This document shows, one piece after another, positions 23,092 through 34,522 of a DNA stretch of 53,315 nucleotides. The notes below the pieces were generated by a model. It saw only the letters and a program-made list of their open reading frames with translations, was not told the DNA's origin and did no database searches. The translations under genes and the position numbers were made by a program. The stretch lies in contig NZ_VLLC01000024.1 of the NCBI RefSeq assembly GCF_007830435.1, forward strand, positions 1 to 53,315, read 5' to 3'. Within the stretch, counting starts at the first letter, position 1. Each line of letters opens with the position of its first letter. The stretch is from Desulfobotulus alkaliphilus (GTDB lineage Bacteria; Desulfobacterota; Desulfobacteria; Desulfobacterales; ASO4-4).

Positions 23092-25053
23092 ATGCTTCAT
23101 TCTCTCTGCCAGCGAAAAAGTCTTTACCTTCTTTTCTTTGTTTTTACGGGTATTTTTTTTATGGGCAGTCAGGCAGACAAAAAAAACGAGCTGGCTGGTC
23201 TGGCCCAGTTCCGCGACGCTGCCAATGCCCAGATGGATATCCTCATTGATACGGCCATTCTCAACTATATTAAAGATTTTGAACGATCCCTTGAAATACT
23301 AGCCCTTGATGATACTTTTCTCCAATTTGCCAGAGACCCGAAAAACCATGGGGCATTTGTGAGAAAGCAGTGGAAGGATTTTCTGGGAACACACCCCCAT
23401 GTTTACTATATTTATTTTGCCCGTATGGATGGCACCATTTTCTTTGAACCTGCGGCCCCGCTTCCCGAAGGATACGATGCCAGAAGAAGACCCTGGTTCC
23501 GCCACGCCCTGAATCAGCCCGGAGAAATCCTCTGGACCTCACCCTATGTGGAAGTCCCCACAAACAGGCGGGTCATCAGTGTCGTCACCACCATCCATGA
23601 CCCTGAATCCAATGAAATGACCGGGGTAATGGGCATGGATCTGCTGACCGAAGATCTGGACAGTTTCCTTGCCGCAGCACCCGCAGGAGAAAAGGGGCTC
23701 CTTGCCATTTTCGCCTCAGACGGACAGCTTGTGGCCTCCCCCCATCCCGAAAAGGTAAAGATTCTCCAGAAAAATCCCCTGCACCTTGTCACCATCCTCA
23801 ATCATGAAAAAGATATTATTAAAATGGATGAGCACACCCCTGAAATGCTGTTCACAACCCGCACCCTGGAACAGCCGCCCTGGCGTATTCTGCAGGGGCT
23901 TCCCCTTTCACTGCAAAACAGGCAGGGTCTCTCCATGCAGCAGACAGCCCTCATGGTCATGGCTGCCATCCTGATCTTTTATATTCTGATCCAGATACTT
24001 TTCCATGGAAAAGCCCGGCGGAAAATCAAAGCCTTTGAAAAAGACATCCACCTGATACAGATACGGGGCCCCGAACTCCTGCCCCTTTCCCACAAAAAAT
24101 TCACATCTCCCCTGAAAACACTTTGCAGACAGCTGGCCATAGATCTGTGGCGCAGTGAAGAAAAGAAGATCTCTTTAAAAAAACAGATGGAAACCCTCAT
24201 TGAAAGAGCTCCCATCGGTATTTTTATATCCACACCGGAAGGCCGTTTTATCCATGTCAACAAAGGCATGGCCCATATTCTTGAATATGAATCACCGGAA
24301 GACATGATTCTCCATATTCAGGATATTGCCCAGGAGCTCTATCTGGACAGGCAGGACAGAAAAATCCTTAAAAACCGTCTTATGGCAGGGGGTGTAGAAG
24401 ATTTTCCCACCCGGTTCCGGAGAAAAAACGGCACCGTCGGCCATGCTTCCATCACGGCCTATGCGGAAATGGGCCCGGACGGTCATATGCTGACCATACG
24501 GGGATTCTTTACGGATATCAGCAGGCAGCGCCAGCTGGAAAACCAGCTCCGCCATATGGCCCACACAGACCGCCTTACGGGGCTTCCCAACCGCCGGAGT
24601 TTCATGGAACTCATCACCCGTGAGGCCGGACGCTTCTGCCGTTACGGGACGCCCTTCGCCCTTCTTGTTCTGAACATGGACCACTTTCGGGACATCAACG
24701 CCCGCTATGGCCATGGAACAGGAGATAAAATTCTCTGTTCCCTGGCGGAAGGACTTTTACAGGCTCTGCGAAGCTGCGATACCCTTGCCCGCATTGACGG
24801 CGACACCTTTGCCATCCATCTGGCGGAAACGGACCTTGAAGAAGGGCTGAAAGCAGCCTTACGCTTTCAAAAGCAGATACACGGAAAAAAAATGGCAGAG
24901 ATGCCGGACATCTATACGACCTTAAGCATCGGTGTTGCCGTACCCACGGAAACCCTTCGCTGCCCGGATCTTCTGCTGCAGGCAGCGGAATCCCGGATGT
25001 ATCAGGCAAAAAAGAAGGGCGGTGCATGCATTCTCCCCGCCCCGTCATCATGA
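23092..25053 (+). CDS. Membrane sensor: Cache, PAS and degenerate GGDEF domains
   Basis: Encodes 653 residues. An N-terminal membrane span (about 8-26) and a second one (about 284-303) enclose a periplasmic Cache domain (YYIYFARMDGTIFFEP, RRRPWFRHA, VMGMDLLTEDL). A cytoplasmic PAS domain (about 365-485) and a GGDEF domain (about 490-648) follow. The expected GGDEF is DGDTF (569-573), so the metal-binding Glu is a Thr, and the catalytic loop is likely dead. The upstream inhibitory-site motif R560-S-C-D563, five residues before DGDTF, is kept. This suggests a c-di-GMP-binding receptor rather than a cyclase (inference). It is 69 nt downstream of the solute-binding gene; its stop codon abuts that of the convergent NYN gene with no bases between. 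Confidence 0.85.
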   Translation: MLHSLCQRKSLYLLFFVFTGIFFMGSQADKKNELAGLAQFRDAANAQMDILIDTAILNYIKDFERSLEILALDDTFLQFARDPKNHGAFVRKQWKDFLGTHPHVYYIYFARMDGTIFFEPAAPLPEGYDARRRPWFRHALNQPGEILWTSPYVEVPTNRRVISVVTTIHDPESNEMTGVMGMDLLTEDLDSFLAAAPAGEKGLLAIFASDGQLVASPHPEKVKILQKNPLHLVTILNHEKDIIKMDEHTPEMLFTTRTLEQPPWRILQGLPLSLQNRQGLSMQQTALMVMAAILIFYILIQILFHGKARRKIKAFEKDIHLIQIRGPELLPLSHKKFTSPLKTLCRQLAIDLWRSEEKKISLKKQMETLIERAPIGIFISTPEGRFIHVNKGMAHILEYESPEDMILHIQDIAQELYLDRQDRKILKNRLMAGGVEDFPTRFRRKNGTVGHASITAYAEMGPDGHMLTIRGFFTDISRQRQLENQLRHMAHTDRLTGLPNRRSFMELITREAGRFCRYGTPFALLVLNMDHFRDINARYGHGTGDKILCSLAEGLLQALRSCDTLARIDGDTFAIHLAETDLEEGLKAALRFQKQIHGKKMAEMPDIYTTLSIGVAVPTETLRCPDLLLQAAESRMYQAKKKGGACILPAPSS

Positions 25054-26439
25054 TTACTGTCTATGGAACCATCTCCGTAAAAGGGCCATCTCCGTTTCCG
25101 TCAGGGAAAGCTGGGCATTCTCGCAGAGGTTCAGGGTATTGGCCAGAAGGCGTTCTGCAAGGGTCCCGGCGGATTCCCGGCCCTCACCAAAACGATGTCC
25201 TGTAAAGGCAATCCCCCGCAAAACAAAATTGACATGCTGTCTGGCCACCGGCACTTCCTTTTCCTTGCAGCGGTCCCGGACTGCTTTGGACACCGTGGTC
25301 ATATTATAGCCTGACTGGTTGATTTCCTGGGCAATGGCGGAAAAAAGGACGCCGTAATGGGTAGGGGAAAGATAGGGTGTATCCGTGAGGTCATGGATTT
25401 TTCTGGCAAGGGCTGCCATTTCCGGTTCAGCAGCCTCAAATACCTCATCCCGGATTCCCGTATCTCCTGCAGGGGCCATGTGGCGCAGGGGGTCATATAC
25501 ATACCCCGGAATCACCGGGGAAGTGGCCAGGGTTCCCAGATCCAGCTCCGCAAGAAAGAGCTTGAAACTCCCCTTTCCCTGCCAGTCGAGACTCACTTCG
25601 GGAAAAGCCTGCCGGATACGGTAAGCAAGCTGGGCCATGGTAACGGCTTCCGGTGAGGACCGGACAAAGGTCTGCACCAGACGGGAACACTGTTCCTTCT
25701 GTTTTTCCATGCCGGTGCCCCCCCCATTCGGACGGGCATGGGGCGTATATGCACTTTTCTCCGGAGAAACAGGGGCAGGAATCTCCACATGTGCTGTACC
25801 AGACAGGTCAGAAATAAGGGCTGAGGTGCCATTCGCTGCCTGTGGTTCAGGTCGTCGGATAATGCGTGCAGGCTCCGAATACCCCATATTGCCTCCGCCA
25901 AGGGCTTCTTCGATGAATACATCCTGATCAATGACAAGGTCGCTGGCTGCCCTGTAGGCGGGGGAGGTGGAACCCACAGCCAGTACCGCCGTTCTCCGGT
26001 CCCACTTCCGTAATTTCAAAAGCACAGGCGTAAAATCCGCATCCGCACTCATGATGATGAATTCATCGTAATTGACCTTATGGTCCAGAAGATCCAGAAG
26101 ATCCACCACCATGTGCACGTCCGCACTGGTTTTCCCCTGGGTGGTCAGGCTGGGGCAATCCACGGTCTCAAAGGCTCCCCGGATAAAGTAAGGCCTGAAA
26201 TTCCCGAAACTTTTGGGATTCAGATAGCAGCGGCGCACCAGAATATTGCGCTTTGCCCCGGCATCAATGCCCGCATAGGGCGGCAGGGAATTTTCAAGCC
26301 ATGAAATCCAGTCCAGGGGACGCGTGGCAAAGGTTCTTGCAATATTTGCATCCAGCTCTGAAAGCCGGATGAAAATATTATCAAAATCCACAAATACAGC
26401 ACTGCGCATGGACCGTGTGTTACATTCCAGATATTGCAT
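25054..26439 (-). CDS. NYN-domain protein with OST-HTH/LOTUS domain
   Basis: Encodes 461 residues. Residues 12-170 form a NYN (LabA/DUF88, PIN-like) domain, with acidic residues in VFVDFDN (D18, D20), TSADVHMVVDLLD and IIMSADADF that match the metal site of these nucleases. Residues about 245-320 (LVQTFVRSSPEAVTMAQLAYRIRQAFP, with KLFLAELDL) look like an OST-HTH (LOTUS) RNA-binding winged helix, and a further helical domain fills the C terminus. It is probably an RNase acting on an unknown RNA. The ATG at 26439 has a strong AAAGGAGG site. The gene is convergent and abuts the Cache-PAS-GGDEF gene. Confidence 0.78.
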   Translation of the reverse strand: MQYLECNTRSMRSAVFVDFDNIFIRLSELDANIARTFATRPLDWISWLENSLPPYAGIDAGAKRNILVRRCYLNPKSFGNFRPYFIRGAFETVDCPSLTTQGKTSADVHMVVDLLDLLDHKVNYDEFIIMSADADFTPVLLKLRKWDRRTAVLAVGSTSPAYRAASDLVIDQDVFIEEALGGGNMGYSEPARIIRRPEPQAANGTSALISDLSGTAHVEIPAPVSPEKSAYTPHARPNGGGTGMEKQKEQCSRLVQTFVRSSPEAVTMAQLAYRIRQAFPEVSLDWQGKGSFKLFLAELDLGTLATSPVIPGYVYDPLRHMAPAGDTGIRDEVFEAAEPEMAALARKIHDLTDTPYLSPTHYGVLFSAIAQEINQSGYNMTTVSKAVRDRCKEKEVPVARQHVNFVLRGIAFTGHRFGEGRESAGTLAERLLANTLNLCENAQLSLTETEMALLRRWFHRQ

Positions 26440-26901
26440 GTTTCCTCCTTTCCCGCCTTAAAATTGCGGGAAAATATCAAGTGCAAAGAATCCCTTGCCG
26501 TTTACGGAAGGGATTCCTATTTTTTACGGACAGAAAAAAAATCTGCCCTTCTGCATGGCAAAGTGGATGAAAAAGCCGGGCCTTCATCCACAGCCCATAA
26601 GAATACCACTGCTGAATAAAAAAACCCACGGATTATCCTGCCCCCATGGCAGAAACATGGAAAAACCGAAAAAAAAAGGATTTTCTGATAAAAACCTCTG
26701 GCGCCTCCATTACCCCCTTTACTTTCCCACATTATTTCAGTTATATTGACCCATACTCTTTTTTGAAAACAGAAAAAACACCGTCCTTCGTATCCGATGC
26801 TCCAGAGCGCAGGATTATTTTACCAGAAATCCTCCATCCATGAACAAAAAAAACCCGTATAAACGCCTTTCACATATCTTCCCGGACAGGGAGCCTGCCC
26901 C
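26440..26901. other. Divergent intergenic region between NYN gene and TPR-barrel operon
   Basis: A 462-base stretch, A/T-rich in its right half, without a convincing gene. It must hold promoters for both flanking genes, but I see no clear pair of -10 and -35 boxes. Its most notable content is the hairpin at 26488-26516 (listed separately). Short open frames here have no ribosome sites or protein-like composition. Confidence 0.5.
26488..26527 (+). terminator. Hairpin followed by a T tract
   Basis: GAATCCCTT at 26488-26496 pairs with AAGGGATTC at 26508-26516, and inside these CCG pairs with CGG around a TTTA loop, leaving one bulged G. A T-rich tract follows at 26520-26525 on the plus strand. 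It looks like a rho-independent terminator, yet no plus-strand gene lies upstream. It may stop antisense transcription, or form a 5'-leader structure for the minus-strand NYN gene. Confidence 0.45.
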
Positions 26902-28407
26902 ATGAAAAAAAATATTTTTTTTATTCTGCCCTGTTTTTTTCTGACCTTTTCTTCCCTTGCCTTCTGCCTGCCTGCCGTGGCAGCCAACCCCCTTCTCAGG
27001 GGAATTGCCGAATACAGGGAGGAACGTTTTGAAGAGGCACTGATTTCATTTAAGCAGGCGGAAAAGGATGACCCCGCATCCTCCATCACGGCCTTTTATC
27101 TGGGACTGACTTTCAAGCAGACCGGAGATTATGAAAAAGCTGTCCGCCATTACCGAAAGGCCCTGATACTGAAACCCCGTATCAATGATGCCTATACAGA
27201 GATCATCGAAGTCCTGATGCGCATGGACCGTACCTCTGAGGCCAGCGGCTATATCCTTGAGGCGGAAAGCGAGGGCATACGGCCGGATCAGATCGCCTTT
27301 CTCAAAGGCCTGAATGCTGCCCGGAGAGGAAAAAGCGAAGAAGCCATCCAGGCCTTTCAGGATGCCATACAGAAAAACCCGGACCTGAGCACAGCCGCAG
27401 AACTCCAGATCGCAATGCTCCATGTGCAGGAAGGAAAACTCCGCCGGGCAAAAAACAGCCTGGAAGCCCTTTCCACCATGGCTCCTGATACGGATCAGGC
27501 AGACTTTGCAAAGGAATACAGCGAGTCCCTTTCCCTGCTCATGGAAAGGCACAGAAAGTGGCACTTCAGCCTTGGAGCCGAAGGCCGTTATGATGACAAT
27601 GTCATTGCCAGTCCATCGACCCGGATCAGGGGCATAGATATAACAGATAAAAAGGACACGGCCCTTTCCAGCTCTTTTCAGGTGCGCTTCAGTCCACTTC
27701 TGGACAGGCCTTTCTCCTTTAACGGCCGCCTTGCCATGAACAGCACAGTTTACAGGGATACATCCACCCACAACACCCTGATGCCATCCCTTTCCCTTTC
27801 CCCTGCCTTCCACTTCAAAGGAGGCAACCTGTCACTGCCCCTGCTTTGGGACCGAACCTGGCTGGGAGGGCACGAATACATGAGCAATGCCAGTATCCGG
27901 CCCACCCTTCTGGTGCAGATGCAATCGAATCATACCCTCCGCCTTTCCGCAGCCTATACCAGAAGGGAGATGCTTCAGGCACCAAGGCTGGCCGATGAAA
28001 ACCGGGACAGCGACATATACACTGCCTCAGCAGCCTATTTTTATTCATTCACGGAAGCCGGAGGGCTTTTTCATATCCGGTATGAGCATATCCGGGATGA
28101 GGCCGAAGGAAACAACTGGAAAAACAAAGGGCAGCGCTATGGCGCTGGCATCCTCATCCCCCTTCAGAAAAAAATCCGCCTGTCCTTCTCAGCAGAACAT
28201 CTGAAACAGGATTACAGCAAAGAACACTCCGTATTCGGCATTCGCCGCAGGGATAAGGACACAGCCTGGACCGCCCTTTTTCTATGGGATCTTTCTCCCA
28301 ACCTACTCTTCAGCCTGAGTTACACGGGCAGCAGGGATGATTCCAACATCCCAATTTATGAATACCGTCGCAATGTTTTAAGCGCAGGACTGGAATACCG
28401 CTTTTAA
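26902..28407 (+). CDS. TPR protein with C-terminal outer-membrane beta-barrel
   Basis: Encodes 501 residues. A signal peptide (1-27, ending PAVAA) precedes about four TPR-like helical repeats (30-190; AFYLGLTFKQTGDYEKAVRHYRKAL is typical). From about residue 200 the sequence alternates polar and apolar residues, with many Tyr/Arg/Phe pairs, and ends LSAGLEYRF with the C-terminal Phe of outer-membrane proteins. This is the build of periplasmic TPR plus barrel proteins such as surface-lipoprotein assembly modifiers and polysaccharide exporters. The cargo is unknown. First gene of a set with the FecR-domain and CHASE2-cyclase genes; 41 nt before the FecR gene. Confidence 0.75.
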   Translation: MKKNIFFILPCFFLTFSSLAFCLPAVAANPLLRGIAEYREERFEEALISFKQAEKDDPASSITAFYLGLTFKQTGDYEKAVRHYRKALILKPRINDAYTEIIEVLMRMDRTSEASGYILEAESEGIRPDQIAFLKGLNAARRGKSEEAIQAFQDAIQKNPDLSTAAELQIAMLHVQEGKLRRAKNSLEALSTMAPDTDQADFAKEYSESLSLLMERHRKWHFSLGAEGRYDDNVIASPSTRIRGIDITDKKDTALSSSFQVRFSPLLDRPFSFNGRLAMNSTVYRDTSTHNTLMPSLSLSPAFHFKGGNLSLPLLWDRTWLGGHEYMSNASIRPTLLVQMQSNHTLRLSAAYTRREMLQAPRLADENRDSDIYTASAAYFYSFTEAGGLFHIRYEHIRDEAEGNNWKNKGQRYGAGILIPLQKKIRLSFSAEHLKQDYSKEHSVFGIRRRDKDTAWTALFLWDLSPNLLFSLSYTGSRDDSNIPIYEYRRNVLSAGLEYRF

Positions 28408-28448
28408 TCCTAAAATAATGCCCGGCAAAAAAGAGCAAAGGAGGCCCC

Positions 28449-31400
28449 ATGTACAGTCAAAACAGTTTCCACAAGATATCCAGCCTGCTCTTTTTTTCCC
28501 TTTTATGCCTGCCTTTCATCCACACCCCAGCCCTGCACGCAGAGCAGGCGGTGGGATATTTTGACAGAATTTCCGGCACAGTGGATGTGTTGAAAGGAGG
28601 GAACCTCCCTGCTTTACCCGCAGAAATCAATATGCTGCTTTATGTCCATGATGTCATACGCACCCGTAGTGCAGGCAGCGCCTCCATTCTTTTCAAAGAC
28701 GGCAATCGTCTGGATATTGCGGAGCGCAGCCGCATCGACATTAAAGAATATCTGATGGGCGAAACCACGGGAAGCCATATCTTCTCCCTGCCCAGAGGAA
28801 AAACAAGAGCCATTGTAAACCCTGAAAACACAAAACGCCTTGCCCTTCCGGATTCCGGAAACCGCTTTGAGATCCATACCCCCAATGCCGTTGCAGGAGT
28901 AAGGGGAACCGACTTCATTGTTCTCCACGATAAAAACACCACAATGGTACTGGTGGATAAAGGACTTGTGGATGTTTTTAATCCCAAAAAACCCGAAATC
29001 CGGATAAGGCTGACTCCGGGCTATGCCAGCACCATCCTGCCGGGCCGGATACCCCAGAGCCCAAGATCCATAAAAACGAAAGAAATGCAAAGGCACCAGC
29101 AGGATACTTCCCGTGATGAGGCAGCAGATAGCGGAGAGGCTGAGGGCAGCCCCCCGGGTCCTGTCCCGGAAAAAAAGGGATTGGGTATCGCGCCCCTCTC
29201 CCTGGAAAGCCCTGATTTCAGCCCTCCCCTCCTTTTAGCGGATACGGAAAGAAGCATACTGGAAGCACCCCATAAAGGTACAGCTGAACCGCCGCCCATT
29301 ACGGATCCCATAAACCAGCAGCCCCCTTTTCCTGATCCCAAACCTGAACCCGAACCTGAACCTGAACCCGAACCTGAGCCCGAACCTGAACCTGAGCCTG
29401 AGCCTGAACCTGAGCCCGAACCTGAACCTGAGCCTGAGCCTGAACCTGAGCCTGAACCTGAGCCTGAACCTGAGCCCGAACCTGAACCTGAGCCTGAGCC
29501 TGAACGGGCTTCCCTTTCCATGGCAGAGGGAACAAAATTCACCCCCAGTTCCCATGGACAGTGGGTCATCGTAGCGGATACACCTGTGCTGTTCGAATAC
29601 CAGCTCAACGACAGTGGCAACTGGGTTGCATTAAACAGCACCCCGGAAGAAAGCATTAATTTTTATATCAATAATTTCGAAGAAGGCCTACATATCATTG
29701 ATATCAGGGCAAAAAACCAAAACGATGAAATCATTGGCAAGCTTTCGGAAACATTCTTTTACGGTGCTGATACCTGGCATCTGACTGGAAGAATCCACAG
29801 TGACACCACAGCCCCTGCGGATACTTACGGCAAGTTTTATATGCACAGCACAATGAAGGAAGGCGTGATCCATATCCCTGTCAGTCTCAGCCAGCCAGAA
29901 GGTCCGCCGGATCGTTTTTACGGAGGTGGTTTCGCCTATGGAGAAACCACAACCATGGATCACGGATTCTGGATCACCGAAATTCCTGCCATCGTTCAGA
30001 GGGATGGGAAGATGCTCCATGGAGAAGGCTTTCTGAGCTACATGGGCATGCGCTACATGGGAAAAGGCGGAGTCATCTTCAATGCATTTTCCGATACAGA
30101 CATGGTGGAAGGCCACGTCTCCACCTCGCTGGATCTTTTCACCAAACAGAAGCTGCGCATGACTCCCCTTGCCTTTGCCGCCATGCTGGACATGCCCATA
30201 GCCTTCTCTGGTAATCTTATTCCGGAAATTCACCACATGGAAACCATATGGGGAGGAGTCCATGACCAGAGCGGCAGCACTCTCTGGAACCTCCAGGCAT
30301 CACAGCTCCATCAGCCGGTGAGCCTCATGGGAAGGTATCCCGTTACGGATCTCCATACACCCCGTATCTTTACGGGAAGCATGGCAAGCTATAATTACGT
30401 GGACGGCTCCATGTCCACCTATGATGGCGGTGCTTTCAGCGGCTTCATTGGAGGTCGGCAGATTCATGACAATATGGAAACAAGAATACGTTCCCTTTAC
30501 CGGGATCCCTATAACAGAACGGGTATTTTCAGCGGAATCATGGGAGCTGCAGGGGAAAAAAACATTTTTGAGGGTATTTCCATGATGCACGTACAGGGGG
30601 GAATACAAAGCAGCGTTGCGCTGGCCAGCCGCCCGGACAGCGGTCCCCTTACCCCGATAAGCTATTACCTGAGCCTTTACTCCCGCCCAGGATCCTTTGC
30701 CAGCGGCGGTGCCATTAACACCGAAAACACCCTGGAACAGAACCTTCACATGATGCATCTTCCCGAATCTCCCTGTTGGGGAATCGCAAAGTTGCAGATG
30801 GGGGGCAGCTATACGGGAACGACGGGTCCGGACTGGCACCTGAAGGTACATACGGACGACAACCTTCCAGGCATAAACCTCCATGTTTCCATGACAGGAA
30901 ACAACTGGGAGGAGGACAGGATAAGCGGAAAAAGCATAGGATACTACAGTCGCTCCGATGCCGCAGGCAACTCGACAGGAATCTATATCGGAGAAACCGT
31001 AGGCACCTTTGATGCCGCAGGATGGCAGGCCTTTGATCTGGGCAGCTTTATGAACACGGTCATGCTCCTCAGCAAAACAGACACGGGCAGCCATCCGGAC
31101 ACGGAGGCCCTGATCCAGCTTCGCATACCCGCCTTTGAAGTAGGCCGTGCCACCCTCTTCGGCAATAAGGACAGTGGAAACGGTATCATCAATGTACATA
31201 TGAATGATGTCATCTTCCTTGCCCCTGTCACGGGTTCCCGTCCCCGCATCTGGGCCACAGAGAATATCTATGGCAACTACGGAAGCACCAGGGACTATCA
31301 GGGACTCACCGTCCCCCTTTCAGGAGATGGCCTGAGCACGAATTTCACCTTTCAAAAATTTGACACCGCCTTAAGGCAGTGGAAGGCCCATATCCATGAC

Positions 31401-31526
31401 GGTGCAGGCAACCTTACAGGAGGCAGCTATACCGGAACTGTCAGCTTTGAAGGGGTTGCCGCAGGCCCGATCCATACGGATCTGCATCAGTTTTCCGGAA
31501 CAGCCGCAGGCATTGTTGATCCATGA
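28449..31526 (+). CDS. Exported FecR-domain protein with Pro-Glu repeat spacer
   Basis: Encodes 1025 residues. A signal peptide (about 1-31) is followed by a FecR domain (about 38-200: [50 protein letters not shown]). Residues 299-352 are 27 straight Pro-Glu dipeptides, and the remaining 670 residues are a Gly/Ser/Thr-rich domain I cannot name. The protein is probably periplasmic or exposed on the surface, with the PE stretch as a stiff, acidic spacer. AAAGGAGG precedes the ATG. The last 4 bases overlap the CHASE2-cyclase gene, so the two are translationally coupled. Such FecR and CHASE2-cyclase pairs occur in other bacteria, but their function is not established to my knowledge. Confidence 0.8.
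29343..29504 (+). repeat. Hexanucleotide tandem repeat encoding (Pro-Glu)27
   Basis: Twenty-seven copies of CCY-GAR, in three variants (CCTGAA, CCTGAG, CCCGAA). The order is not random: a 36-base block of six hexamers is repeated exactly at 29373-29408, 29409-29444 and 29469-29504, with 24 bases of simpler repeat between the second and third. This pattern shows growth by duplication of the larger block. Changes in hexamer number keep the frame, so they would alter spacer length and not switch the gene off. Confidence 0.95.
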
Positions 31527-33586
31527 ACCCTTTTTTCCGGAGAAAATTTTCGGAGTCTTATCCCCTCGAAAATGGAAAAAAAACTCCGAAAATTTTTCTA
31601 TGCCATGTTTTCAAAACCCCCGAAGGCCTGCGAAAAAGCCTTTCCCTTGTCACGGGCATGGGAATTACCCTTTTCTGCGCAGGCCTTCTGTATGTTCAAG
31701 TCCCCTTTTTTGACCATGTGGAAAACAATCTTCTGGATTACCGTTTTAAAATGCGGGGCCCCCTGCCTGTTCCTGAAAATATTGTCATTGCAGCCATTGA
31801 TGAAAAAAGCCTTGCCCGCCTCGGCCGCTGGCCCTGGGACAGAAATGTCATGGCAGGGCTTGTGGAAAAACTTGGTGAAGCAGATGCCGCCCTCATTGTC
31901 TGGGACGTTTTTTTCACAGAACCCGAAAAAAACGATGCCATCCTTGCAGAAGCCCTGTATCAGGCAGGCAATGCCCTGCTTCCCCTGGTCATGGATTTTG
32001 AGCACAGCCCAAAGCCCTTATCCAGCCCCATCCCCCCCCTTTCGGCCCTGACATCCATCGAAAACAGCAGTGCCTTTTCCCATTATCCGCCCATCCTTGC
32101 CAAGCGCCTTCTCATGCCCATGGACATGCTCATGGAAGATGCAAGGGGTCTTGGACACATCAACATGTTTCCCGACAAGGACGGTTCCCTGAGGTGGGAG
32201 GCCCTTATCATTGCCCATGACGGATATCTCTATCCGGCCCTGAGCCTCAGGGCCGCTGCGGAATACCTTCAGGTTCCGCTGGAAAAAATCCGGGTGGAAG
32301 CCACCCGCAGCATACAGCTCGGTGAGCGCACCATTCCCACGGACCCCTGGGGACGCACCCTCATCAATTATTACGGACCCGGCCGCAGCTTTCCCCATGT
32401 CTCCATTGTGGATATTCTGGAAAACCAGACCGACAAAAAAAAGCTTTCCGGCAGCATTGTTCTTATCGGAGCCACCGCCGCAGGCATCTACGACCTGCGG
32501 GTAACCCCCTACAGTGCGGCCATGCCCGGCGTGGAAAAGCATGCGTCCCTCATTGCGTCCTTTCTGGAAGACCAGCCCCTTCAAAAAGCCCCCTTTACCC
32601 TGAATCTGGCCCTGCTCCTCGGCTCTGGCCTTCTGCTCACCCTTGCCATCACCCGTTTCAGAGCCATAGAAACCTCTTCCCCTCTGGCTCTGGGTTTTCT
32701 TCTGGCACTGGGTGCCACAGGCCATGCAGCCTTTACAGGATACGGACTCTGGCTGAACCTGACCCTGCCCTTCCTCAATACCCTGCTCATTTACAGCGGC
32801 GTCACCGCACTCCACTACGGCGTTGAAGAAAAAAACGCCCGCCGCATCCGTGCCATGTTTTCTTCCTATGTCACGGAAAGGGTTGTGAATGAACTGATAC
32901 AGCATCCTGAAATGGCAAAGCTGGGGGGGATCCGCAGGGAGGTGACCGTTCTTTTTTCCGATGTCCGGGGGTTCACCTCCTTTTCAGAAAAACATTCCCC
33001 GGAAGAGGTGGTCAGCATCCTCAATGAGTACCTCGGAGAAATGACAAGGGCCGTGTTCCGCCATGAGGGAACCCTCGACAAGTTCATCGGAGATGCTGTC
33101 ATGGTTTTCTGGAACGCCCCCATGCTTCAGCCCGACCATGCCGCCCTTGGGGTGTATTGCGCCCTGGACATGGTTGAAAGGCTTGAAAGGCTCCAGCAGA
33201 AATGGAAAAAGGAAGGAAAACCCCTTCTGGACTGTGGCATCGGACTCAACACTGGCGAAGTGCTGGTGGGCAACATTGGTGCCGAGGGCCAGAAAATGGA
33301 TTACACCATCATTGGCGATCAGGTGAACCTGGGGGCCAGACTGGAGTCCCTGACAAAAAAATATCAGGCCCGCATCCTGATCAGTGATGAGACCCTTAAA
33401 AGAATCCGGCCTTTCATGGAAGAGGGCCGCTTCCCCGGGCTGGTGGTCAGGGGCCGTGAAAGGGTCATTGTCAAGGGTAAGGAGAAGCCCGTCACCCTGT
33501 ACGAGGTGAGTCAGGAAAAAAACGCTTCTGCGGCCCAAATTATTCCATGCAGCCGGAACGATGTAGTAAAAATGACAGAAAAATAG
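31523..33586 (+). CDS. CHASE2-domain class III adenylate cyclase
   Basis: Encodes 687 residues. An N-terminal span (about 42-60) and a cluster of spans at about 355-440 enclose a periplasmic CHASE2 domain ([21 protein letters not shown], the family signature, at 85-107). The C-terminal class III cyclase domain (about 460-650) has metal-binding D480 (LFSDVRGFT) and D524 (FIGDAVM), adenine-selecting K520 and D593, and N602/R606 for the transition state ([16 protein letters not shown]). So it should make cAMP. It starts on the stop codon of the FecR gene (ATGA). The FecR protein is a plausible partner for its periplasmic part (inference). Confidence 0.9.
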
Positions 33587-33730
33587 TTGAAAAACCGCCT
33601 GCAATGTGTCACATGCAGAACTGGTTTCAGGCCCGCCGCCTTTGTCTTCACCATCCCGGCCTGTACCGGGCTTATCTGAAAACACAGCCCGGCACCAGAG
33701 ACCGGCAATCTCTCCTGGATGCGAGGCCCC

Positions 33731-34522
33731 ATGGACAAACTCCCTGTCTCTTTTCAGCAGGTCAGCTTCTCTTATGAAAACAGCATTCCCGTACTGGATG
33801 ATGTCAGTTTTGACATCCATGCAAGGGAACTGGTTGCCATGGTCGGCCCCAATGGCGGGGGAAAAACCACCCTTTTAAAACTCATGACCGGCATGCTGAC
33901 CCCGTCTTCAGGCAGCGTAAGTCTCTTTGGAAAAAAGCCCCTCTACGCCCGTCCCAGAATCGGATACATGCCCCAGTACCTGCACTTTGATCCCGATTTT
34001 CCCATTACAGTCCGGGAAGTGGTACTCATGGGCCGTCTGGGTCGCGGCGGCATTCGGGGCTTTCTGGGCTGGCCGGATAAAAAGGACCGCAGCAAGGCCA
34101 TGGAATGCCTTGCCCATGTGGAAATGGATACTCTGGCGGATCGTCCCTTTTCCGATCTGTCCGGAGGCCAGAAGCAGAGGGTTATGATTGCAAGGGCCCT
34201 TGCCTGCGAACCGGAACTTCTGCTTCTGGATGAACCCACGGCCAATGTGGATTCCCAGACGGAAAGCCGTTTCATGGCCCTTCTGGAAGAGCTTTCAGAA
34301 AAAATTACCGTAATCATGGTTTCCCATGACATGGGTTTTGTCAGTGCCCTTGTAAAGAGCGTTCTCTGCGTCAACAGAAAAGTGGTGGTGCATCCCACAT
34401 CGGAACTCACGGGAACGGCCATTCAGGATATTTATAACTGCAGCATGCAGATGGTCCGGCACGACCACCGCTGCACGGAAAAAGGGCATACCCATGTCAT
34501 CCCTGATCAGCGTTCTCTTTGA
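33731..34522 (+). CDS. Zinc/manganese-type ABC transporter ATPase (ZnuC-like)
   Basis: Encodes 263 residues. Walker A is GPNGGGKTTLL, the signature LSGGQKQR and Walker B LLLLDEPTAN; the H-loop is MVSHD. ITVREVVLMGRLGR is typical of the metal-import (ZnuC/MntB/SitB) subfamily. The C-terminal tail is histidine-rich (HDHRC, GHTH), which suggests metal sensing or binding. The start at 33731 (MDKLPVSFQQV) has GAGG just upstream. It overlaps the permease gene by 29 nt. No substrate-binding protein gene lies next to it. Confidence 0.85.
   Translation: MDKLPVSFQQVSFSYENSIPVLDDVSFDIHARELVAMVGPNGGGKTTLLKLMTGMLTPSSGSVSLFGKKPLYARPRIGYMPQYLHFDPDFPITVREVVLMGRLGRGGIRGFLGWPDKKDRSKAMECLAHVEMDTLADRPFSDLSGGQKQRVMIARALACEPELLLLDEPTANVDSQTESRFMALLEELSEKITVIMVSHDMGFVSALVKSVLCVNRKVVVHPTSELTGTAIQDIYNCSMQMVRHDHRCTEKGHTHVIPDQRSL

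Follow-up and report, generated by a model that had tools for sequence, protein, structure and literature searches.

That a signal may cross the cell envelope to set the output of a cyclic AMP (cAMP) pathway is not new in outline, as the NsrA-CyaK system of Sinorhizobium meliloti and a gene cluster of Campylobacterota have already been published. On the S. meliloti replicon pSymB, a FecR protein of 1190 amino acids (aa), with tetratricopeptide repeats (TPRs) and a weak outer-membrane barrel match, is encoded directly before the cyclase CyaK; its gene, recorded as FecR domain-containing protein, is presumably nsrA. According to passages of two reports, a plant signal raises cAMP-dependent expression only if NsrA and CyaK are present, and an outer-membrane protein of this species is needed for cAMP signalling (PMC7529298, PMC13001267); a passage of a third states that the S. 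meliloti FecR gene smc02177 is not needed for signal perception (PMC5498481). The section on the Campylobacterota cluster describes a CHASE2 adenylate cyclase gene together with those for a phosphodiesterase, a FecR outer-membrane protein and a TPR protein, and proposes a single pathway (PMC9239204). Partly overlapping combinations appear in passages on other bacteria: a LysM-FecR protein with a CHASE2 histidine kinase in the BiofilmReg operon of Burkholderia (PMC5192318), MtxA preceding a CHASE2 cyclase in magnetotactic bacteria (PMC4439547), and the Lysobacter iron cluster orf4990-4994, which encodes an RpoE-type sigma factor, a FecR regulator, a TonB-dependent transporter, a TbpB-like lipoprotein and a Slam protein (PMC11233812). 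Here we analyse a stretch of 53,315 nucleotides (nt) from Desulfobotulus alkaliphilus (contig NZ_VLLC01000024.1; hereafter the window), in which three consecutive genes at 26902-33586, all on the forward strand, encode a TPR and barrel protein, a FecR protein and a CHASE2 adenylate cyclase. What is new here is the tie of such a trio to the Slam/type 11 secretion family and the existence of two alternative C-terminal modules of the FecR protein.

The open reading frames (ORFs) of the trio lie at 26902-28407, 28449-31526 and 31523-33586 and encode products of 501, 1025 and 687 aa; 41 nt separate the first two genes, and the last two overlap by 4 nt. The first product has a hydrophobic N-terminus, TPRs (TPR_2, E 5.8e-17) and a C-terminus reading EYRF, with an aromatic final residue. 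Its residues 220-492 match the SlipAM barrel domain (PF04575, 27559-28377; E 2.3e-10, 40.9 bits against a cut-off of 22), and the TPR_Slam profile (PF24575) scores 36.2 bits against a cut-off of 35.2. With N-terminal TPRs followed by a SlipAM barrel, the protein is by its domain content a member of the DUF560/Slam/type 11 secretion family of outer-membrane barrels, and on the barrel tree described below it groups with barrels of other FecR-CTD loci. The second product, a proposed exported or tethered cargo, carries a hydrophobic export signal and behind it a FecR domain (PF04773, E 2e-14; residues 68-174, 28650-28970), followed by an unbroken (PE)27 run of 54 residues (residues 299-352, 29343-29504). 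Residues 360-1025 gave no Pfam or NCBIfam match up to an E-value of 0.1; within them, a conserved C-terminal module (CTD; residues 734-1025, 30648-31523) was delimited by three alignments and is predicted by AlphaFold2 to be all-beta and barrel-like. The third product combines CHASE2 (E 2.7e-63, residues 52-371) with a Guanylate_cyc domain (E 6.2e-26, residues 473-658), in which D480, K520, D524, D599, N602 and R606 sit in stretches aligning with solved bacterial adenylate cyclases; we take these to be the metal, adenine and transition-state residues of class III cyclases. On its domains, alignment and position in the cyclase tree, it is assigned to the CHASE2 class III adenylate cyclases. The first-pass annotation of this DNA had described the same gene geometry, the FecR protein with its 54-residue Pro-Glu spacer and large unrecognised C-terminal region, and a CHASE2 cyclase with all catalytic residues, and our ORFs, translation, Pfam scans and alignment reproduce all of these. 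It had also recognised an outer-membrane barrel with TPRs, which Pfam confirms, and had overlooked that this barrel belongs to the DUF560/Slam family.

That the FecR protein may be Slam cargo is suggested by FecR proteins in related genomes, some of which end in TbpB_B_D (PF01298), a known Slam-cargo domain. This domain was found inside the FecR protein of one locus (L114), and our survey of the order, which covered 116 genomes by profile search (CHASE2 in 91, FecR in 84, SlipAM in 30), gave nine matches in eight genomes, over the cut-off in five. In the three best matches (genomes G011, G035 and G022) the domain forms the C-terminus of a FecR protein whose gene immediately precedes that of a CHASE2 cyclase, and the matches in G015, G016 and G059 have a SlipAM match within 8 kb. 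In a wider sample of the phylum, PF01298 occurs in 14 of 395 genomes. Eight of these 14 loci, from four families (L258, L260, L262, L264, L265, L266, L267 and L086), hold a same-strand trio in which TbpB_B_D ends a FecR protein flanked by a SlipAM barrel on one side and a CHASE2 cyclase on the other. At L267 (genome G316) the TbpB_B_D match is just under the Pfam cut-off, and at L086 SlipAM, in a split frame, was detected only by a hidden Markov model (HMM) built for this analysis (E 2e-4). L263 is the same trio cut by a contig end, and L261 consists of broken frames beside a CHASE2 fragment; no CHASE2 cyclase was found in the stretch at L255, L256 (contig end), L257 or L259. At L255 a small FecR protein and a CHASE2 protein of 968 aa, the latter with no cyclase match, lie near the TbpB_B_D protein and SlipAM. 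Outside this sample, a Shinella plasmid encodes in a row a TPR protein, a FecR protein with a weak FHBP_C match (E 0.0021) and a CHASE2 cyclase.

Same-strand trios recur beyond these eight loci, at L157 and at L085, where a contig end truncates the barrel, and the linkage of the three families across the order is far above expectation. The counts cover all 40 SlipAM matches (two of them below the Pfam cut-off) and 150 FecR and 150 CHASE2 genes among the matches listed, with expectations computed without regard to contig ends. In 24 of 40 cases, against 0.034 expected, SlipAM is followed on the same strand by a FecR gene at most 3 kb away, a distance that does not always mean adjacency, since one ORF intervenes at L098 and L099 and two at L153 and L159. 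Of the 150 listed FecR genes, 17 have CHASE2 no more than 5 kb away (0.80 expected), and for 5 of the 40 SlipAM matches CHASE2 is at most 8 kb distant (0.33 expected). Neighbourhoods were annotated with small HMMs built for this analysis on mechanically called ORFs; recounting CHASE2 on unmasked frames at the CTD and TbpB_B_D loci, by which the L266 cyclase was recovered, left the counts unchanged. Chance adjacency of the trio genes is ruled out by these figures. The neighbourhood survey that the first-pass annotation had proposed thus found barrel, FecR and CHASE2 genes linked above chance, not at the chance level that was to speak against its idea. The tight pair is that of barrel and FecR; the cyclase is a recurrent, optional partner.

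The CTD of the window protein defines a second family of FecR C-termini. Counting the window's own genome, it occurs in 8 of the 116 genomes of the order and in 22 of the 395 of the phylum sample; named metagenome-assembled genomes (MAGs) hold seven loci, four of them new (L115-L118) and including Nitrospinota and Nitrospirae (the other three, L119-L121, are contigs already counted as L096, L099 and L101). A barrel gene lies near the CTD gene in 17 of 23 stretches of the phylum sample, and of the six without one, four are at contig ends (L152, L154, L171, L173) and two are real misses (L168, L170); in the order the figure is six of nine other stretches, which hold ten CTD genes. Seven of the 23 phylum stretches have a CHASE2 cyclase, in tandem as in the window at L157, where the whole layout recurs with the same C-terminal module, and convergent at L156, L161, L162, L163, L164 and L174. 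At L115, a Nitrospinota MAG, a CTD frame cut by a contig end is followed by a tandem CHASE2 cyclase; none was found at the MAG loci L116, L117 and L118. Judged by its genes and their domains, the window has the trio layout of the TbpB_B_D loci with a different C-terminal module that bears no sequence relation to TbpB_B_D. FecR-CTD proteins span 479-2885 aa, with repeated CTD units; at L162, L164, L166 and L172 proteins or frames of 2400-2900 aa contain many units, and length differs greatly among genomes. A proline content of at least 25% over 40 residues after FecR is found in 14 of 29 FecR-CTD proteins, compared with 4 of 16 FecR-TbpB_B_D proteins, 1 of 11 TPR fusions, 1 of 24 small FecR proteins and 5 of 15 FecR proteins of other kinds; the Pro-Glu run is therefore one form of a spacer common among the window's own FecR-CTD family.

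The type of FecR C-terminus co-varies with the clades of barrel and cyclase. On the barrel tree (64 rows, FastTree), in which labels were set after the neighbourhoods had been seen and near-copies inflate clustering, all 22 barrels beside CTD genes form one clade with L116 and L165 (CTD in the next frame), and a second clade holds 9 of the 14 barrels that adjoin TbpB_B_D. That the barrel tracks the C-terminal module of its neighbour is the pattern one would expect of a translocon and its cargo. The cyclase tree (65 rows, labelled likewise after inspection, so that near-copies again inflate clustering) needs 16 label changes against 37.8 when labels are shuffled. It places the window cyclase in a clade with support 100/100 together with six others whose genes lie near those of FecR-CTD proteins; L115 pairs with L157, also at 100/100, and the 11 cyclases from FecR-TbpB_B_D loci fall with a single further row into a group supported at 95/95. 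A group with support 88/64 and flagged long branches contains S. meliloti CyaK and the other cyclases that have fused-type FecR-TPR neighbours. The two other CHASE2 cyclases of the window genome fall elsewhere on the tree.

Absence of the trio as a block was also observed. Two same-genus genomes (G001 and G002) retain the flanking genes without it, the gap in G001 extending from 26533 to 33788 of the window. In G002, nucleotide homology (blastn) ends at 26644 and restarts at 33481, within the last 106 nt of the cyclase gene, of which a remnant of 39 residues at 59% identity is detectable by tblastn. Because homology resumes inside the end of the cyclase gene, the trio was probably deleted from G002 in one piece (missing block 26645-33480), the remnant being a probable deletion scar. 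In G022, which belongs to another family, the two ABC genes and the arginine decarboxylase gene that follow the trio in the window are preceded by a trio of the TbpB_B_D type. The genes adjoining the trio on its other side (23092-26439) encode a dCache-PAS-GGDEF protein and an NYN-domain protein; both are kept in the two same-genus genomes where the trio is missing and are thus not part of the unit.

In the reading that we prefer, the TPR/SlipAM protein would be a Slam-type outer-membrane translocon and the neighbouring FecR protein its cargo. The translocon would bring the beta-rich C-terminal part of this cargo to the outer membrane or across it. The small N-terminal FecR domain, joined to that part by the rod-like Pro-Glu spacer, would stay in the periplasm, contact the CHASE2 domain of the inner-membrane cyclase and gate the cyclase. 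Ligand binding at the surface, or the export state of the cargo, could then set cAMP output, to be read by CRP-type proteins. The window genome has 12 cNMP-binding matches by profile search; CRP-like sites (15, with 18.5 expected) and promoter-like sites (4, with 5.7 expected) are not above chance, and terminator-like sites number 16 against 11.0 expected, 15 of them on the minus strand. We infer export of the C-terminus, retention of FecR, its contact with CHASE2 and the change in cAMP from gene content, domains, linkage, co-inheritance and the absence of the block in same-genus species. That the three proteins cooperate in cAMP signalling appears probable to us, and we lean, with less assurance, towards a role of the barrel in exporting the FecR C-terminus. 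The full picture, in which a FecR-headed cargo is threaded through the outer membrane with its C-terminus outside and FecR docked on CHASE2, so that surface events or failed export change cAMP directly, and in which the CTD is a second, unrelated cargo module recognised by its own barrel clade, is tentative and, in all its detail, rather unlikely.

Several observations weigh against this reading. The CTD itself has no TbpB_B_D match in profile scans of the window protein, and hhalign comparison with the FecR-TbpB_B_D set, local and global, returned probabilities of 0.3 and 0.4 on a percent scale; by sequence, the window FecR protein is not a member of the C-terminal TbpB_B_D family to which the FecR proteins of some relatives belong. 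The AlphaFold2 model of the CTD (292 residues, from an eight-sequence alignment; pLDDT 78.6, pTM 0.82) is all-beta and barrel-like, and in structure comparison OmpX, dirigent proteins and designed barrels reach Z-scores of up to 5.4, with hemophilin at 4.7 and TbpB at 4.6, so that this model does not rank Slam cargo over unrelated small barrels. A 666-residue model of the C-terminal part is poor (pLDDT 55), and its VIA list contains many hemophilin, TbpB and fHbp rows, none of them with a Z-score of at least 5; Foldseek with either model gave no match at an E-value of 0.001. Among the matches listed, 19 of the 24 SlipAM-FecR pairs have no CHASE2 within 8 kb and only 5 have one, and many FecR partners of SlipAM in the order are only about 320-480 aa long. 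PF01298 matches occur in only 2 of these pairs (G035 and G015), for which reason we lowered our confidence that signalling by the trio and export by the barrel hold together, both as stated, to slightly less than an even chance. At FecR-CTD loci the cyclase is convergent in six of the seven phylum stretches that have one and missing from the other 16 of 23, several of which are cut by contig ends; none of the nine other FecR-CTD stretches of the order has a CHASE2 gene, the nearest listed, in G026, being just outside at 9.7 kb. On the cyclase tree the CTD label needs two changes, and a single family supplies five of the seven rows of the window's clade (five of nine CTD rows), so that independent events are fewer than rows; most rows labelled 'other', including L024, which joins the window's clade, were labelled from short loci.

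Closest to the view of the first-pass annotation is the possibility that the trio is NsrA divided between two genes: the barrel would be a surface receptor, its TPRs and the FecR protein would relay a signal through the periplasm to CHASE2, and nothing would be exported. The single S. meliloti polypeptide with FecR, TPRs and a weak barrel match before CyaK speaks for it, as does the need for NsrA in perceiving the plant signal, reported in a passage of PMC7529298. FecR-TPR proteins of 1059-1274 aa with a C-terminal residue typical of outer-membrane proteins also lie beside CHASE2 cyclases at L083, L104, L106 and L107, where there is no Pfam barrel match. The window barrel, however, belongs by its domains to a secretion family, FecR partners bear a known Slam-cargo domain in eight trios, and the fused-type cyclases are separate from the window's clade (at the 88/64 support given above); we hold this relay to be improbable, if quite conceivable. 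The first-pass proposal that FecR bridges the envelope and tunes cAMP output thus gains from the linkage, the recurrent trios and the S. meliloti parallel, and is modified in that the FecR protein may be exported cargo and not purely a periplasmic bridge. Its notion of the operon as one signalling unit agrees with the recurrence of the trio and is qualified by the many barrel-FecR pairs that stand without CHASE2.

Those unaccompanied pairs speak for a different explanation, in which the barrel and FecR protein export or anchor a surface or adhesin-like protein and the cyclase acts separately, at most regulating expression. The repeated CTD units and wide length range of FecR-CTD proteins, and the SlipAM-FecR pairs followed by giant Ig/cadherin/laminin-G/PKD proteins at L209, L215, L218 and L219, are also in its favour. 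Surface display alone nevertheless leaves aside the excess of FecR-CHASE2 linkage and the fact that the cyclase clade follows the FecR C-terminal type even where gene order is rearranged, as at the convergent loci, and we judge it distinctly unlikely. The presence of a FecR domain with an outer-membrane barrel gene upstream, and the Lysobacter cluster of sigma factor, FecR, TbpB-like and Slam genes described in a passage of PMC11233812, would also suit regulation of an ECF sigma factor as in FecIRA, with the cyclase incidental. A Pfam scan of eight locus proteins, the trio and five neighbours, found no sigma factor, and on this ground FecIRA-type signalling was rejected; the FecR domain, moreover, lies behind an export signal in a large exported protein in which no cytoplasmic anti-sigma part was recognised, and FecR and CHASE2 genes are linked. 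We regard this as extremely improbable.

Related arrangements were seen elsewhere. The giant proteins after the SlipAM-FecR pairs at L209, L215, L218 and L219 also carry beta-helix domains, suggesting a variant for adhesin export or anchoring without a cyclase. At L212 (2018-5302), the product encoded after the SlipAM-FecR pair is another possible cyclase partner, a soluble class III enzyme that also has zinc ribbon, AAA and TPR domains. In a second arrangement (L075, L076, L078, L079, L090 and L091), the gene for a CHASE2 cyclase (about 750-790 aa) is followed on the same strand, in some cases only after several other genes, by that for a small FecR protein of about 240-280 aa; L075 and L076 contain a further CHASE2 protein without a cyclase match.

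As a possible route from the bacterial surface to an inner-membrane cyclase, the recurrent trio offers a concrete chain of translocon, FecR cargo and CHASE2 that may serve as a guide. It provides a possible partner for FecR proteins without a sigma factor and proposes what the DUF560 proteins of environmental bacteria may export and do; the CTD, in turn, may be a C-terminal targeting module new to the DUF560 family. A literature search, with supplements and most subscription journals outside its reach, found three papers that contain both CHASE2 and FecR and nothing linking Slam/DUF560 to CHASE2 or a cyclase, and the main texts of PMC12282271 and PMC8406197 do not mention FecR, CHASE2 or adenylate cyclase.

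Among the described systems, BiofilmReg resembles the window in that an exported FecR protein adjoins a CHASE2 sensor, and differs in its kinase output; the passages on it mention no outer-membrane barrel (PMC5192318). The Lysobacter cluster likewise has a FecR-family gene near a Slam gene, with a TbpB-like protein beside both, but there FecR pairs with a sigma factor and is encoded separately from the TbpB-like protein, and the passages describing it mention neither a cyclase nor CHASE2 (PMC11233812). The same kinds of proteins are clustered in Campylobacterota, where, unlike in the window, a phosphodiesterase and a FecR outer-membrane protein are included and the section on the cluster does not mention the secretion family (PMC9239204). 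Slam systems with TbpB_B_D cargo (TbpB, fHbp, hemophilins) share with the window a TPR and SlipAM protein and a neighbour with a C-terminal beta-rich module, and a passage notes proline-rich N-terminal repeats in some Slam cargoes (PMC12282271). The window's candidate cargo differs from these in that it starts with FecR, precedes a CHASE2 cyclase and has a module that is not TbpB_B_D by sequence. In LapA/LapD adhesin retention, an exported protein is held by its periplasmic N-terminal part and is read or controlled by an inner-membrane signalling protein; that system uses type 1 secretion, c-di-GMP and proteolysis, and we draw a functional analogy with the trio without claiming homology. Like the window, finally, NsrA-CyaK has FecR, TPR and outer-membrane barrel sequences immediately upstream of a CHASE2 cyclase gene, but in one polypeptide as opposed to two genes, in a protein without a SlipAM match at an E-value of 0.01 and without a cargo-like C-terminal module, and with a cyclase in the fused-type group (supported only at 88/64), whereas that of the window falls in the FecR-CTD clade (100/100).

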